Shown: piece after piece, positions 28,536 to 35,460 of the stretch
How positions within the stretch are numbered: position 1 is the stretch's first letter
Layout: every line of letters starts with the position of its first letter
Origin: Deltaproteobacteria bacterium
GTDB taxonomy: Bacteria; UBA10199; JACPAL01
Direction of reading: 5' to 3'
DNA length: 41,200 nucleotides
Assembly: GCA_016180845.1 (NCBI GenBank)
Contig: JACPAK010000010.1
Coordinates: 1 to 41,200 of the forward strand
Program-made: the position numbers and the translations under genes
The notes under the pieces: model-generated
Told to the model about the DNA's origin: nothing
The model's database searches: none
The model's input: only the letters and a program-made list of their open reading frames with translations

Positions 28536-30464
28536 TCAAGGTAAGAGACATGGGGTCTCTCCATCGGACGCAGGCCCTGTACCATCAGGAAGATATTTTT
28601 CGATAACAATATCCATATAAAACCCCTCCAGAGGGTCAACAGGAGGATTATGGAGGGATCCGATAAAGTAGACAGCCCCCGTAGGATCAACCGTGACAGC
28701 ACTAAATCTCTCCACAAAGCCATAAGATCCAGAAACTTGGTTGATACAATGCTCCCAATCGGCAGAATAATCTGTGTTGAACCGTGCCGCCCATCTCCGA
28801 TCAATATCATCTTCTGAACCAATGCCCCCCATGTACCTCTGATCTCCAGCAATCTGAATCTCCCCTTCTGCATTGACGGCAATCCCATTGATCTCACGCG
28901 CTTGGTCGTTAGTCCGTGTCAGGAGACCGATGCGTTCACCATCACTACTGTATTTCGCAACAACAGGCCAACTCCAAGGTGGCCCGATAAGTCCGTGGGT
29001 TGCGACATGAATATTTCCCTCGGGGTCTACGGCGAGATCTTTTCCATCACTTGATTGAGAAGAGAGTTCAGGGTCTTCGGACCAGTTCAGTGACCAAAGC
29101 TGGCTACCACCGGAGGAATACTTTGCAAGCCAAAGGTGTGAGATGGAGGGGGTAGAGGGCCATGAACCTACCCCAACCGTCCCCGTGACATAAAGATTCC
29201 CTACTGAATCAACGGCAACACCGCTGCCATAATCTCTTAAATCAGTCTCCCCTTCAGAGGTTCCATTGACAATGTTTCCCCAGACAAGAGGGGTGATACC
29301 GAAGGGGGTGAAATCATATCTCCTCACAAAAATCTCTGATTCCATAAAAGGTCCGGTTGATCCCGTCACATAGAGTCGCTTATTAGGACGGTCGACGGTA
29401 ATATCTGATGATCTTTCTCCATCCCAGGTATCCTCAGAGATGTTAAATGAAAAGCCGCCTCCAGATTCACCTTCGTGAGTGACCCTTGCAATGAAGAGTC
29501 CCTCCGGACCAAAGAAATTTTGACCTGTGATGTAACTATTTCCACACGCATCGATATCAATCCCACTCGCATACTTTCCTGAGAATGGGAGCTCCCAGAT
29601 CAAATTTCCGCAGGCATCAAATTGTCGAACCACCGTTGTCCATGAGTCTGCATTGGTCACGGTATAGAGGGTTCCGTACATATCAGCGGCGATATCAACA
29701 CCATGGTCATCTATAGTGCCCGGTTCCCCAAGAATCCTTCTCCAAGGGGTGTCTGGCGATTCACAAAGGGCATAATGGGGATCAATCGGATCATCAGGGG
29801 ATTTAGGCTTGCCGGCCGGATCACAGGGAGTCGGTGGCCGTCTCACACAACGATCGGTGCAACCAAAACCACCGTCACACGCCTCCCCTGCTTCCACAAT
29901 CCCATTGCCACAAACGGGCCGGATGCAGTTCTTCGGGCATGCCCCTACGACAGTATCGCTGTTCGCGAGCCCCTCATCACACTCTTCTCCCACTTCCAAG
30001 ATCCCATTTCCACAGGAGGCTGGACATTCTGGGATGTGAGTCAGAACTCCCTGCGGCAACTCGCATTCGATGACACAATCTTCGCTACAACCATCTCCGG
30101 AGACTCGATTCCCATCGTCGCACCTCTCCCCACCATTAAGAACCCCATTTCCACAAAGGTTAAAACGGACAATCACTCGAGGATCAAGATCGAATATCCT
30201 ATCGAACCGCTTACCAAACTCTTTAAACCCTTTCTTGATTCTCTCGGTCAAAGAAACTTCCTTTTTGGTAAGTTCCAAACTCTCCTTGGCGCGTCTCACC
30301 TGGAATGGGTTCTTAGATTTCTTGGGTTGAACGGCTCTTTTGACTTCCTGTCTGGTAAATTTTGTCTGGGCTTGGAGCGGTCTCAAAAAGAGCCCTTCGG
30401 ATCCGGTCTGAAAAATCAGGAGACTGATAAAAAACGAGGTCATTATGAAGAGGGTCTTGGCCAT
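28536..30464 (-). CDS. exported protein with DUF4215 cysteine-rich repeats and SBBP-type propeller
   Basis: A 642-residue protein. MAKTLFIMTSFFISLLIF is a signal peptide, then a basic region. Three Myxococcus-type cysteine-rich repeats (TIGR02232/DUF4215) lie at about 105-215: CGNGVLNGGERCDDGNRVSG, CGNGILEVGEECDEG and CGNGIVEAGEACDGG. The rest (about 245-640) is a beta-propeller of repeated units such as DITVDRPNKRLYVTGSTG, VAVDSVGNLYVTGTVG and LAVDPEGNIHVATHG, the SBBP pattern. Likely surface or secreted; function unknown. An ATG seven codons downstream is an alternative start. The ATG at 30464 lies 15 bases from a perfect -24/-12 promoter. Confidence 0.88.
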   Translation of the reverse strand: MAKTLFIMTSFFISLLIFQTGSEGLFLRPLQAQTKFTRQEVKRAVQPKKSKNPFQVRRAKESLELTKKEVSLTERIKKGFKEFGKRFDRIFDLDPRVIVRFNLCGNGVLNGGERCDDGNRVSGDGCSEDCVIECELPQGVLTHIPECPASCGNGILEVGEECDEGLANSDTVVGACPKNCIRPVCGNGIVEAGEACDGGFGCTDRCVRRPPTPCDPAGKPKSPDDPIDPHYALCESPDTPWRRILGEPGTIDDHGVDIAADMYGTLYTVTNADSWTTVVRQFDACGNLIWELPFSGKYASGIDIDACGNSYITGQNFFGPEGLFIARVTHEGESGGGFSFNISEDTWDGERSSDITVDRPNKRLYVTGSTGPFMESEIFVRRYDFTPFGITPLVWGNIVNGTSEGETDLRDYGSGVAVDSVGNLYVTGTVGVGSWPSTPSISHLWLAKYSSGGSQLWSLNWSEDPELSSQSSDGKDLAVDPEGNIHVATHGLIGPPWSWPVVAKYSSDGERIGLLTRTNDQAREINGIAVNAEGEIQIAGDQRYMGGIGSEDDIDRRWAARFNTDYSADWEHCINQVSGSYGFVERFSAVTVDPTGAVYFIGSLHNPPVDPLEGFYMDIVIEKYLPDGTGPASDGETPCLLP

Positions 30465-32482: not shown

Positions 32483-34030
32483 ATGAGGAAGATGGTGAAG
32501 AAAGCAACCTTTCAACTCCTTGTTCTTCTTGTCTCCTTGGTCCCAGCCCAGAAAATTCTCGCCTGTGGTTATGGTTATCATCTCCTGCATCATCTGATTA
32601 ATCGTGAGGTCATCACCTATACAGCGCCACAAACTCTTCCCACGACACTTCTCCAAGGAAATAGTGTCTTCAAAGTTAAAATTACCGATGTCTTTAATGG
32701 AAACGTGAAAAAAGGCTCAACGATCTTCCTGATTTGCCAGGAGGGGGTGAAACCGGAGTCTTGTAAATTCGATGGGAGAAAATCCCCCTTCCTGTTTTTG
32801 ATAAAGCTGAGCGAAAAATCCCCCGTTTATAAAAATCTTCGAAAGATCTCCAAGACAGTCTACACCTTTCACCCTAACGATGGGATATCGCTAACTGTAA
32901 AAGACGGTCCCGGCTTACGTGAATTTATTAAAAATAAAAACAACCTCCAAAAATCGGCTATCGCGATGAAATCAGTTCAGACCCCTGCCTTAAAGGCGTC
33001 TCACTGCGCCCTCATTGCCCAAAAACAAACGGACAATCCAAATCTGCCCGGCTGTGTTGCGGAGGTCTTAAAAACAAAGTCCGTTGCCGATATTAATGCC
33101 CTTTTAAAAGTCATTTCGGACAACGTTTCCAAACTGAAGAAAAATATCGGCCCTCTCTGCAATCTCCTCAAGAATGATTTTAATCAGGCGAACAAGAATA
33201 TCATCAATCAAGGCGAACTGAACCTCCGTTCCTCACTGAAATGTCCTGACAACGCCTCCTGGCTGCTGAGTGAGCTTGAAAAAAGCACGAACGAATTTGT
33301 GACGATGCTGATCCCATATCATCTGGGATTAGCCCGTGATGCTGCAGCGGTGAAAAAAGGGATAGGGTATTTCGAAAAACATCCTGAAAAAATAACCACC
33401 GTCATCCTTGAACAGTTCGCCTACGCCCTCTTCATGACGAATCAATGCGATCTGATGGATCAGTATGTGGAAAAAATCAGCAATGAACTTAAAAATCTTC
33501 CTTCCGATTATCTTGAATCATTTGAAAAAAATCAAACCTGGGATTCGATCGCCCAACACTATACGAGATGCAAGGGGATCCAATCGGGAAAATCAAAGCT
33601 CCTCGTCTCACTCCTTACCGATTCACCACAAGGATGGCCGTTTCCCGCCAAAAACGGCAAGGTCAGCTTTCGAATCCAACAAGCGGCGATAACATCACTG
33701 GAAATGCAGCTCTCCAAAAAAATAATCACCCCTGCCGAAGAGGGGTTGAAAGGGGCGATGCTTTACCAACTCCAGTCGGGACACCCTCAGGTTGTTCCAG
33801 AGGCGATCCGCTTCTTGAAGAGATATTACACGAGCCCCGATATCGATTCGCAAATTCTTCAAGTCGCGATGAGACCAGATGCCGAGAAATACTGGCAGAG
33901 CCATGCCATCATGGCGTTCCTTCAGAATAGTCAGACCGACAAGGCGATCCAGATTGCAACAAACAGCCGATTTCGACAGATCAAGACAATGGGACAGATG
34001 CTCCAGAAGGGGAAGAAAAACAAGCCATGA
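32483..34030 (+). CDS. exported protein with possible NTR/TIMP-like N-terminal domain
   Basis: A 515-residue protein with signal peptide (LLVLLVSLVPAQKILA) and a Cys (residue 28) as probable first mature residue. Residues about 58-115 (SVFKVKITDVFNGNVKKGST, then IFLICQ, ESCKF and SPFLFLIKL) resemble the OB-like fold of NTR/TIMP domains, where an N-terminal Cys can contact a protease zinc. That match is by eye only. The remaining 350 residues are helical, with Cys pairs and HEAT-like segments near the end. Start codons at 32492 (ATG) and 32495 (GTG) are possible; GAGGA at 32486-32490 would serve the latter. The stop overlaps the metzincin start by ATGA, so the two are made together. Confidence 0.75.
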   Translation: MRKMVKKATFQLLVLLVSLVPAQKILACGYGYHLLHHLINREVITYTAPQTLPTTLLQGNSVFKVKITDVFNGNVKKGSTIFLICQEGVKPESCKFDGRKSPFLFLIKLSEKSPVYKNLRKISKTVYTFHPNDGISLTVKDGPGLREFIKNKNNLQKSAIAMKSVQTPALKASHCALIAQKQTDNPNLPGCVAEVLKTKSVADINALLKVISDNVSKLKKNIGPLCNLLKNDFNQANKNIINQGELNLRSSLKCPDNASWLLSELEKSTNEFVTMLIPYHLGLARDAAAVKKGIGYFEKHPEKITTVILEQFAYALFMTNQCDLMDQYVEKISNELKNLPSDYLESFEKNQTWDSIAQHYTRCKGIQSGKSKLLVSLLTDSPQGWPFPAKNGKVSFRIQQAAITSLEMQLSKKIITPAEEGLKGAMLYQLQSGHPQVVPEAIRFLKRYYTSPDIDSQILQVAMRPDAEKYWQSHAIMAFLQNSQTDKAIQIATNSRFRQIKTMGQMLQKGKKNKP

Positions 34031-35460
34031 AAAGGCGCTCCTTTTTAATAACGTATGCTGCCGCAACAATTCTCCTCCTTTCTCAGGGATGTGATATAGA
34101 TCGGGCTTGGGTCTTCCGACCCCTCCAGGAGGATCTCCTGATAACGACAGACTCTCTCACCCTCACTGGACTGGTGGGACGCTGGTCTGATGGCGCCCTT
34201 GTTGATATCTATGAAGATTGGGGAGGACTCCCCTGTCAATCCAACTTTTACAGAGAAAATTATGGTGATTATATTGCATCGGGAAGAATCAGTTATCCTT
34301 ACGAAACGACAACTGATGACTATGGATTTTTTGAGTTTAACCTGGGATTCACGGGCGCTTCACAGGGACTCTATCAGTTTGAATGTTTCAGACCTCTCTT
34401 GAGACCATCCCGTTATCGGTTGACCACCTATCGAACGGATCTGACAGCTGCCCGGCGACAGTACATCTTTTTCAATTGGGAAGGGACCTATACAACTTAC
34501 TGGGGTGATTGGGTGGATAGCTCTCTAAAAAATACTCTGAGTAGTACTACATCCATTATTGGGACATTCGATCCGGCAATAGAGTATTGGGTTCGTCTAG
34601 CAATTACCGCAGATATGGCAAAGATCGAAACCGAACGAAATTTTCTCGCCCGTTATGCCTGGGCCTATGATCCATTTTGGCCACTGAGAGTGGAAATTTG
34701 GGAAGCCCCCTCCTCAATCGAGACGATCATCGATGAATATGAAACAGCTACTTATACCGATATCGATGTCACCTATAACTATTATGAGTTCCCTGATAAC
34801 GTGCAGGTTGTGCAGATGGTTCCCTGTATATTGTGGGAGCCTACGGTAGAAGAATGTGCAACAATTTTTGGGATTCCGGAGGCAGAGGTTACGGATGATA
34901 TCTGTTCTCCGATCAACAATGATATCTGTTTGGCCTATGGACGTTATTTAGGTGATTGCGCCTTTGATTGGCTCAATTCGGACCTGTCAGGTGGGGCCTG
35001 TAATATTTATGTCCCCTCGATGGCTGCCGCGATCGACGCCGCCTTCGATGGTGGGTTTTTGACCTTGGCTGATGGTAGCGACAATCGGGTTCAGGATATG
35101 GCGAGGATACTCGGCAATTCAGCGGCCCATGAAATTGCTCATGCAGCAGGGCTTGTCAGTAATGAGCATCTGTATGGAACATGCCTTGAAGGAATAGAGG
35201 TGCTTGATGGTTATGGTAATCCGATCTGCCTCAGTCATGATCCGTTTGAACCGGATTTTGTCGCAGCCCAGAGAAATATCCCACGAACGATCATGAATAG
35301 TACCGAAACCCCTTGGGCACCCGGATACTTTTTTGAACGTTGCAGTGGATCGCCCGGTTATACCGGCTATCCGCCTGAAACTGCCGCTCGATGCCCAAAC
35401 CGTTTCAATGATTTTAACGCTCAATACCTACGTTACATCCAAGGAAGAGATGAGCCTTAA
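34027..35460 (+). CDS. metzincin-like zinc metalloprotease lipoprotein
   Basis: A 477-residue protein with lipobox LLLSQGC (Cys22). AHEIAHAAGLVSNEH contains HExxHxxG (His368, Glu369, His372, Gly375), the metzincin helix and turn. RTIMNSTETP supplies a Met-turn (Met423) about 50 residues later, as required in that clan. The third zinc ligand is not at the standard position; His381 or the His of LSHDP are candidates. Residues 40-150 look like a beta-rich domain with carboxypeptidase-like repeat style (SLTLTGLVGRWSDGALVDIY). Acidic and Tyr/Cys-rich. It overlaps the NTR-like gene by four bases. It should be an outer-membrane or surface protease; the subfamily is unclear. Confidence 0.8.
   Translation: MKRRSFLITYAAATILLLSQGCDIDRAWVFRPLQEDLLITTDSLTLTGLVGRWSDGALVDIYEDWGGLPCQSNFYRENYGDYIASGRISYPYETTTDDYGFFEFNLGFTGASQGLYQFECFRPLLRPSRYRLTTYRTDLTAARRQYIFFNWEGTYTTYWGDWVDSSLKNTLSSTTSIIGTFDPAIEYWVRLAITADMAKIETERNFLARYAWAYDPFWPLRVEIWEAPSSIETIIDEYETATYTDIDVTYNYYEFPDNVQVVQMVPCILWEPTVEECATIFGIPEAEVTDDICSPINNDICLAYGRYLGDCAFDWLNSDLSGGACNIYVPSMAAAIDAAFDGGFLTLADGSDNRVQDMARILGNSAAHEIAHAAGLVSNEHLYGTCLEGIEVLDGYGNPICLSHDPFEPDFVAAQRNIPRTIMNSTETPWAPGYFFERCSGSPGYTGYPPETAARCPNRFNDFNAQYLRYIQGRDEP

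Follow-up and report, generated by a model that had tools for sequence, protein, structure and literature searches.

TIMPs are textbook animal proteins. They place Cys1, which is held by the Cys1-Cys70 link, into the cleft of the protease, where the amino and carbonyl groups of this residue contact the zinc (PMC3679795). A bacterial pair has been described in Listeria, where the neighbouring genes LMRG_00713/00714 (Mtz-Tim) encode an exported metzincin and a TIMP-like protein, and similar pairs were found in other Firmicutes; Tim is cleaved by its metzincin Mtz and is thus a substrate rather than a demonstrated inhibitor (PMC8235301). In Tannerella forsythia, the potempin genes directly precede the KLIKK protease genes (PMC7296668). 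In addition, the alkaline protease inhibitor AP Inh binds the zinc of the protease with the N-terminal residue that signal peptidase exposes, and an N-terminal fusion blocks the inhibition (PMC4070987).

In the window (the whole 41,200-nucleotide stretch that was analysed, from a Deltaproteobacteria bacterium), the first-pass annotation had proposed a possible TIMP/NTR-like exported protein translationally coupled to a metzincin lipoprotein. The two genes, here termed A and B, and their features are as follows.

32483..34030, forward strand: gene A, exported protein of 515 aa (open reading frame; homologues at L013:8984-10564 and L014:10148-11755)
32483..32563, forward strand: signal peptide of A, ending QKILA before Cys28 (sequence and homologue alignment)
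32564..32932, forward strand: putative N-terminal NTR/OB-like domain of A, residues 28-150 (AlphaFold2 element order; hhalign to the N family, described below, in register)
32945..34027, forward strand: predicted C-terminal alpha-solenoid of A, residues 155-515 (all-helical in AlphaFold2; ARM/HEAT-type matches only)
34027..34030, forward strand: ATGA start/stop overlap of A and B (4-nt overlap also in L013, as ATGA, and L014, as GTGA)
34027..35460, forward strand: gene B, metzincin-like lipoprotein of 477 aa (open reading frame; four homologues in the sister genome G001)
34027..34092, forward strand: lipoprotein signal peptide of B, ending LLLSQGC (sequence; Gly-Cys in 5/5)
35128..35142, forward strand: HEIAH zinc-binding motif of B, residues 368-372 (sequence and homologue alignment)
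35236..35253, forward strand: HDPFEP motif of B with His404, the likely third zinc ligand (H, P, E and P invariant in 5/5; constant Met-turn spacing)
35281..35298, forward strand: Met-turn PRTIMN of B (Met in four of five homologues, Leu in one)

Like Mtz-Tim, A-B consists of adjacent genes for an exported metzincin-like protein and an exported TIMP-like protein, although the TIMP-likeness of A is only suggestive. The metzincin gene comes first in Mtz-Tim, whereas the protease-like gene is second here; Tim is the lipoprotein and Mtz is soluble, whereas in A-B the protease-like B is anchored; and Mtz-Tim has a canonical HExxHxxGxx[HD] motif, no reported solenoid and linked phage-type regulators, all unlike A-B. 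The potempins, compared without regard to folds, share the gene order of A-B, but there the inhibitor is a small lipoprotein without a solenoid. Inh/AprI is, like A, exported and encoded near a metzincin gene, but lacks Cys1. This alkaline protease inhibitor has a fold of another kind.

We addressed the export of A by aligning the three available sequences. The second ATG of the frame, at 32492, was the start common to the homologues and is probably the true start of the gene. The cut region reads ...QKILA|CGYGYHLLHHL, and Cys28 was kept in 3/3 sequences, behind the tripeptides ILA, AMT and AEA. Judged by eye, two of these three tripeptides fitted signal peptidase I, and lipobox quality was poor in all three; because of these poor lipoboxes, Cys28 is probably free rather than lipidated, less surely so in L013. 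In the homologue with AMT before the Cys, the signal may be cleaved two residues earlier. Thus, the earlier claim of an exported protein with Cys at its mature N-terminus was borne out, the mature chain probably starting at or next to Cys28.

The TIMP/NTR-like label, in contrast, could apply only to the front of the protein, a domain of ~120 aa; about three quarters of A is a predicted alpha-solenoid of ~360 aa, which had been overlooked. AlphaFold2 (AF2) modelled A from a three-sequence input with a mean pLDDT of 80, placing most solenoid blocks at 80-96 and no long disordered linker between the two parts. In this model, residues 28-150 (pLDDT 63-90) run from a helix through five or six strands to a final helix, which is the order of the NTR module: helix 30-40, strands 42-46, 50-52, 62-72 and 80-85, helix 91-94, strands 103-108 and 126-129, and helix 139-150. 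The domain opens with CGYGYHLLHHL, and C94 sits at the Cys of the 'CGF' of bacterial TIMP-like proteins, the counterpart of TIMP-1 Cys70. Animal TIMP/NTR modules (PF00965, PF01759) share with A, on these comparisons, the probable mature N-terminal Cys, the predicted NTR-like helix/strand order and a Cys at the Cys70 place; unlike them, A has no Pfam match, no CxC, a Gly at residue 2, a large solenoid and a gene beside that of its presumed target. A fold search with the A model returned ARM/HEAT solenoids and designed repeats, with no NTR/TIMP among the matches listed, and was uninformative for the N-terminal domain.

Direct sequence comparisons were less telling. Pfam and NCBIfam gave no usable match for either protein (none for A, weak family matches only for B); Pfam TIMP (PF00965) matched neither A nor its homologues and nothing above its cut-off in the host's class; and a PDB sequence search gave matches at chance level only. 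Against the T family, the Paenibacillus-like TIMP-like proteins, hhalign found nothing for A. Against the N family, A was aligned at a probability of 24% with a score of 23.9, whereas 100 column shuffles gave no score above 18.2; with a smaller N set the score was 21.3, compared with at most 15.4 in 40 shuffles and at most 12.9 in 23 windows of unrelated natural alignments. The aligned stretch coincides with the AF2 strands 62-72, 80-85 and 103-108 of A. An N-family profile search of the host genome did not retrieve A at E<=10. As a calibration, three-sequence subsets of N found T at 41-96%, so any true kinship between A and N must be looser than that of N and T. The front domain of A is probably folded like animal TIMPs; its homology to NTR proteins is only suggestive. 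The TIMP/NTR idea was partly supported: the AF2 element order speaks for it, and the class-wide pairing of TIMP-like proteins with metzincins gives it stronger, indirect support than the 24% sequence link.

The residues C28, H33, H37, C85 and C94 and an HPxDG motif were invariant in the three A sequences. The Cys and His residues (C28, H33, H37 and H130, with C85 and C94) could accordingly be read as binding metal, A being a zinc-delivering or metal-sensing partner, and the N-terminal CxxxxHxxxH was indeed invariant in 3/3 sequences despite differences at up to about 60% of their positions. However, only three sequences are compared, C28 and C94 equally suit a TIMP-type disulphide, and A matched no metal-binding family; we regard this explanation as distinctly unlikely.

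B carries the HEIAH and the Met-turn that had led to its description as a metzincin lipoprotein, and its lipoprotein character stands, with a Gly-Cys lipobox in 5/5. The canonical HExxHxxGxx[HD] motif is not satisfied, which is why we call B metzincin-like rather than a metzincin: HExxHxxG is present, but position 11, the place of the third ligand, is Ser in B and reads S/N/D/K/A across the five homologues, with Asp in B2 only. Instead, B and its homologues share an H-[DNT]-P-x-E-P motif located 23-32 residues past the second His and at a constant ~20 residues from the Met-turn (consensus P-x-x-[IV]-[ML], after the active-site helix). Because the His of this motif is invariant and keeps this constant distance, it probably replaces the canonical third zinc ligand, as in leishmanolysin (M8), which has a 62-residue insertion before the third His (PMC5572447). 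B and leishmanolysin have in common HExxHxxG, an insertion before the third His and then the Met-turn; the insertions differ in length (62 residues versus the 23-32 residues from the second to the candidate third His in B), and there is no sequence match. The AF2 model of B, at a mean pLDDT of 44, was too poor for a fold search. At the sequence level, the HExxH helix of B matched ADAMTS-5 without significance. B residues about 25-150 (window 34100-34480) look like a beta-sandwich, perhaps carboxypeptidase-regulatory-like.

The overlap of A and B by ATGA, also noted in the first pass, was found at 34027-34030, and it is more than chance since 4-nt overlaps are repeated in the sister genome. Among 99 genomes searched, A or B occurred beyond the host only in this genome, G001, of the same family, where contig 13 carries the cluster A-B1-B2 and contig 19 the cluster B3-A'-B4. 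In all three clusters of the two genomes, a 4-nt overlap joins each A to the B behind it, and another joins B1 to B2. The L013 homologue was 55-56% identical to A and the L014 homologue 38-40%, and none of the three sites shared its neighbouring genes with another. When the host's class and 385 genomes were searched with profiles, no further A or B members came up, the leftover matches being chance, and a scan of genome contigs with the A alignment yielded no relative. The weak matches L017 (which lies antisense to an argD-like gene), L025, L026, L126 and L127 were dismissed as chance, those inspected being unrelated genes. L021 was a generic canonical metzincin. Taken together, the data supported A-B as a real, conserved and co-translated pair. 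As, among the genomes searched, only G001 besides the host carries A or B, and does so in two clusters at unrelated sites, the pair is, judging from the sequences, a family-restricted module duplicated as a unit. That A and B are neighbouring but functionally unrelated envelope proteins, for which one could cite the lack of family matches for A and the merely weak ones for B, is very improbable, for the linkage survives duplication at three unrelated sites with its 4-nt overlaps. Genes resembling pyrG and rpoN (named by eye) flank the pair, and a small gene downstream is oriented towards it; a promoter scan at the locus gave scores no better than shuffles.

The wider pairing was entered through a hand-made NTR consensus, which led to an exported protein of a same-class genome (L028) whose gene overlaps that of a matrixin-like metzincin by 4 nt. 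A search with this protein showed that 48 of 290 genomes encode relatives, including 32 of the 46 of the host's class. The resulting N family is a separate exported TIMP-like family of ~200 aa without a solenoid, for which Pfam and NCBIfam gave no name. It is securely TIMP-like on sequence grounds, because hhalign related it to the T family at 97% and one T member, at 25.1 bits, exceeded the Pfam TIMP cut-off (23.1). The T loci (L060-L089) encode TIMP-like proteins of the Paenibacillus-like 'CSC' kind, of which one or more end in an LPXTG-like C-terminal anchor.

Profile scanning of the retrieved regions gave 56 distinct N loci (L030-L059 and L093-L123 in other genomes, G000:C2:116076-116663 and G000:C8:15729-16112 in the host), two further matches at contig ends being left out. 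We counted an N locus as paired when HExxHxxxxx[HD] stood in the N frame itself or in its neighbour on the same strand. Such a motif adjoined or was fused to N at 39/39 loci in the class and 12/17 outside it, compared with 0/30 T loci having a metzincin motif within 1.5 kb. The N gene commonly lies directly upstream of the metzincin gene and often overlaps it, with typical gaps of -8 to +13 nt, and the host genome has two such pairs besides A-B. In two cases, L096:2866-4947 (reverse strand) and L112:1636-3534 (forward strand), the metzincin and a C-terminal TIMP-like domain form one open frame; L096 scored above the Pfam matrixin cut-off and had a carboxypeptidase-regulatory-like match, below cut-off, between the two domains. 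Weak Pfam matches likewise placed a carboxypeptidase-regulatory-like domain after the protease in N-linked metzincins. No metzincin motif was found near the out-of-class N genes L050, L098, L103, L109 and L114, and that of L103 lies within a frame of more than 1200 aa. These pairs resemble A-B in that an exported NTR-like protein is encoded directly upstream of a metzincin, often with overlap; unlike A-B, they have no solenoid, the third ligand His is canonical (28/28 metzincins beside N), and the metzincin is related to B in the active-site HExxH helix only. N proteins also lack the N-terminal Cys, and the class-wide pairing therefore does not depend on Cys1. The distribution suggests that TIMP-type control of secreted proteases may be common in bacteria.

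On these grounds, we tentatively proposed that A-B is a co-translated protease/partner module in which A is an inhibitor or guard of B, a reading whose chances we put somewhat below even and which is nevertheless the best single one, given the gene order, the export and where C28 and C94 lie. In this proposal, A would be exported, removal of the signal peptide leaving Cys28 at or near the front of the mature chain, and the NTR-like domain of A would bind the catalytic domain of the lipid-anchored B. The N-terminal amino group and the Cys would approach the zinc of B, as in TIMPs and AP Inh, and A would most likely keep B inactive or guarded until B reaches its place of action, while the solenoid might link both proteins to another protein or to a surface. 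We infer each of these parts, namely the NTR module, the contact with B, its inhibitory nature and the position of the N-terminus and Cys near the zinc. The proposal is consistent with the linkage of A and B in three clusters at unrelated sites in two genomes; with the invariant Cys28, the Cys70-like place of C94, the NTR order in AF2 and an A-N alignment above shuffles; and with the N-metzincin pairs (39/39 and 12/17), the two fusions and the precedents of neighbouring inhibitor and protease genes. Against it stand the A-N hhalign of only 24%, the absence of any A-T match and the N profile that misses A, as well as the N family without an N-terminal Cys. In addition, since the zinc site of B is non-canonical, a TIMP-like insertion into B may not apply.

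The Listeria precedent also counts against an inhibitor, since Tim is a substrate. A may by the same token be a substrate or released effector of B, a freed NTR or solenoid fragment acting elsewhere; the sole studied bacterial metzincin/TIMP-like pair that we found works so (PMC8235301), and the long solenoid could be the active part. However, A has no evident cleavage site and its AF2 model no long disordered linker, and the anchored partner in Listeria is the TIMP-like protein, whereas here it is the protease-like B; we thus consider this reading rather unlikely. The solenoid, which makes up most of A and has no counterpart in known inhibitors, bears equally on whether A is a folding or assembly partner (a foldase, secretion chaperone or scaffold) that cradles B and does not inhibit it. 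The size of the solenoid, about 360 aa, the co-translation and the ratio of one A per two B in each G001 cluster would fit such a role, but the same pairing is seen in the N family, which has no solenoid and of which two members are fused to the protease, and we hold a folding partner to be no likelier than a substrate.

The first-pass annotation had held that such a pair would be new for this group. This was overstated, because the plainer N-metzincin pairing is class-wide and a similar pair has been published from Listeria and other Firmicutes (PMC8235301); what stands is the A-B variety itself. With the class-wide pairing and the two fusions, one published bacterial case becomes a general question, namely whether NTR domains control metzincins across bacteria and whether the animal TIMP/MMP pair is an instance of an older arrangement. 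A-B adds to this a version with an N-terminal Cys, nearest to animal TIMPs in that one respect, together with an unusual protease. We would go further only speculatively, and think it doubtful, in supposing that TIMP-type NTR domains, most of them lacking an N-terminal Cys, are in wide use among bacteria as dedicated guards of the metzincins that these bacteria secrete, and that the A guard gained a solenoid arm and a TIMP-like Cys1 with a target whose zinc site is leishmanolysin-like, so that N-terminal Cys chelation would have arisen or persisted outside animals. Elsewhere in the window, the reverse strand at 28536-30464 encodes an exported protein of 642 aa that carries DUF4215/myxo disulphide repeats together with SBBP beta-propeller repeats.
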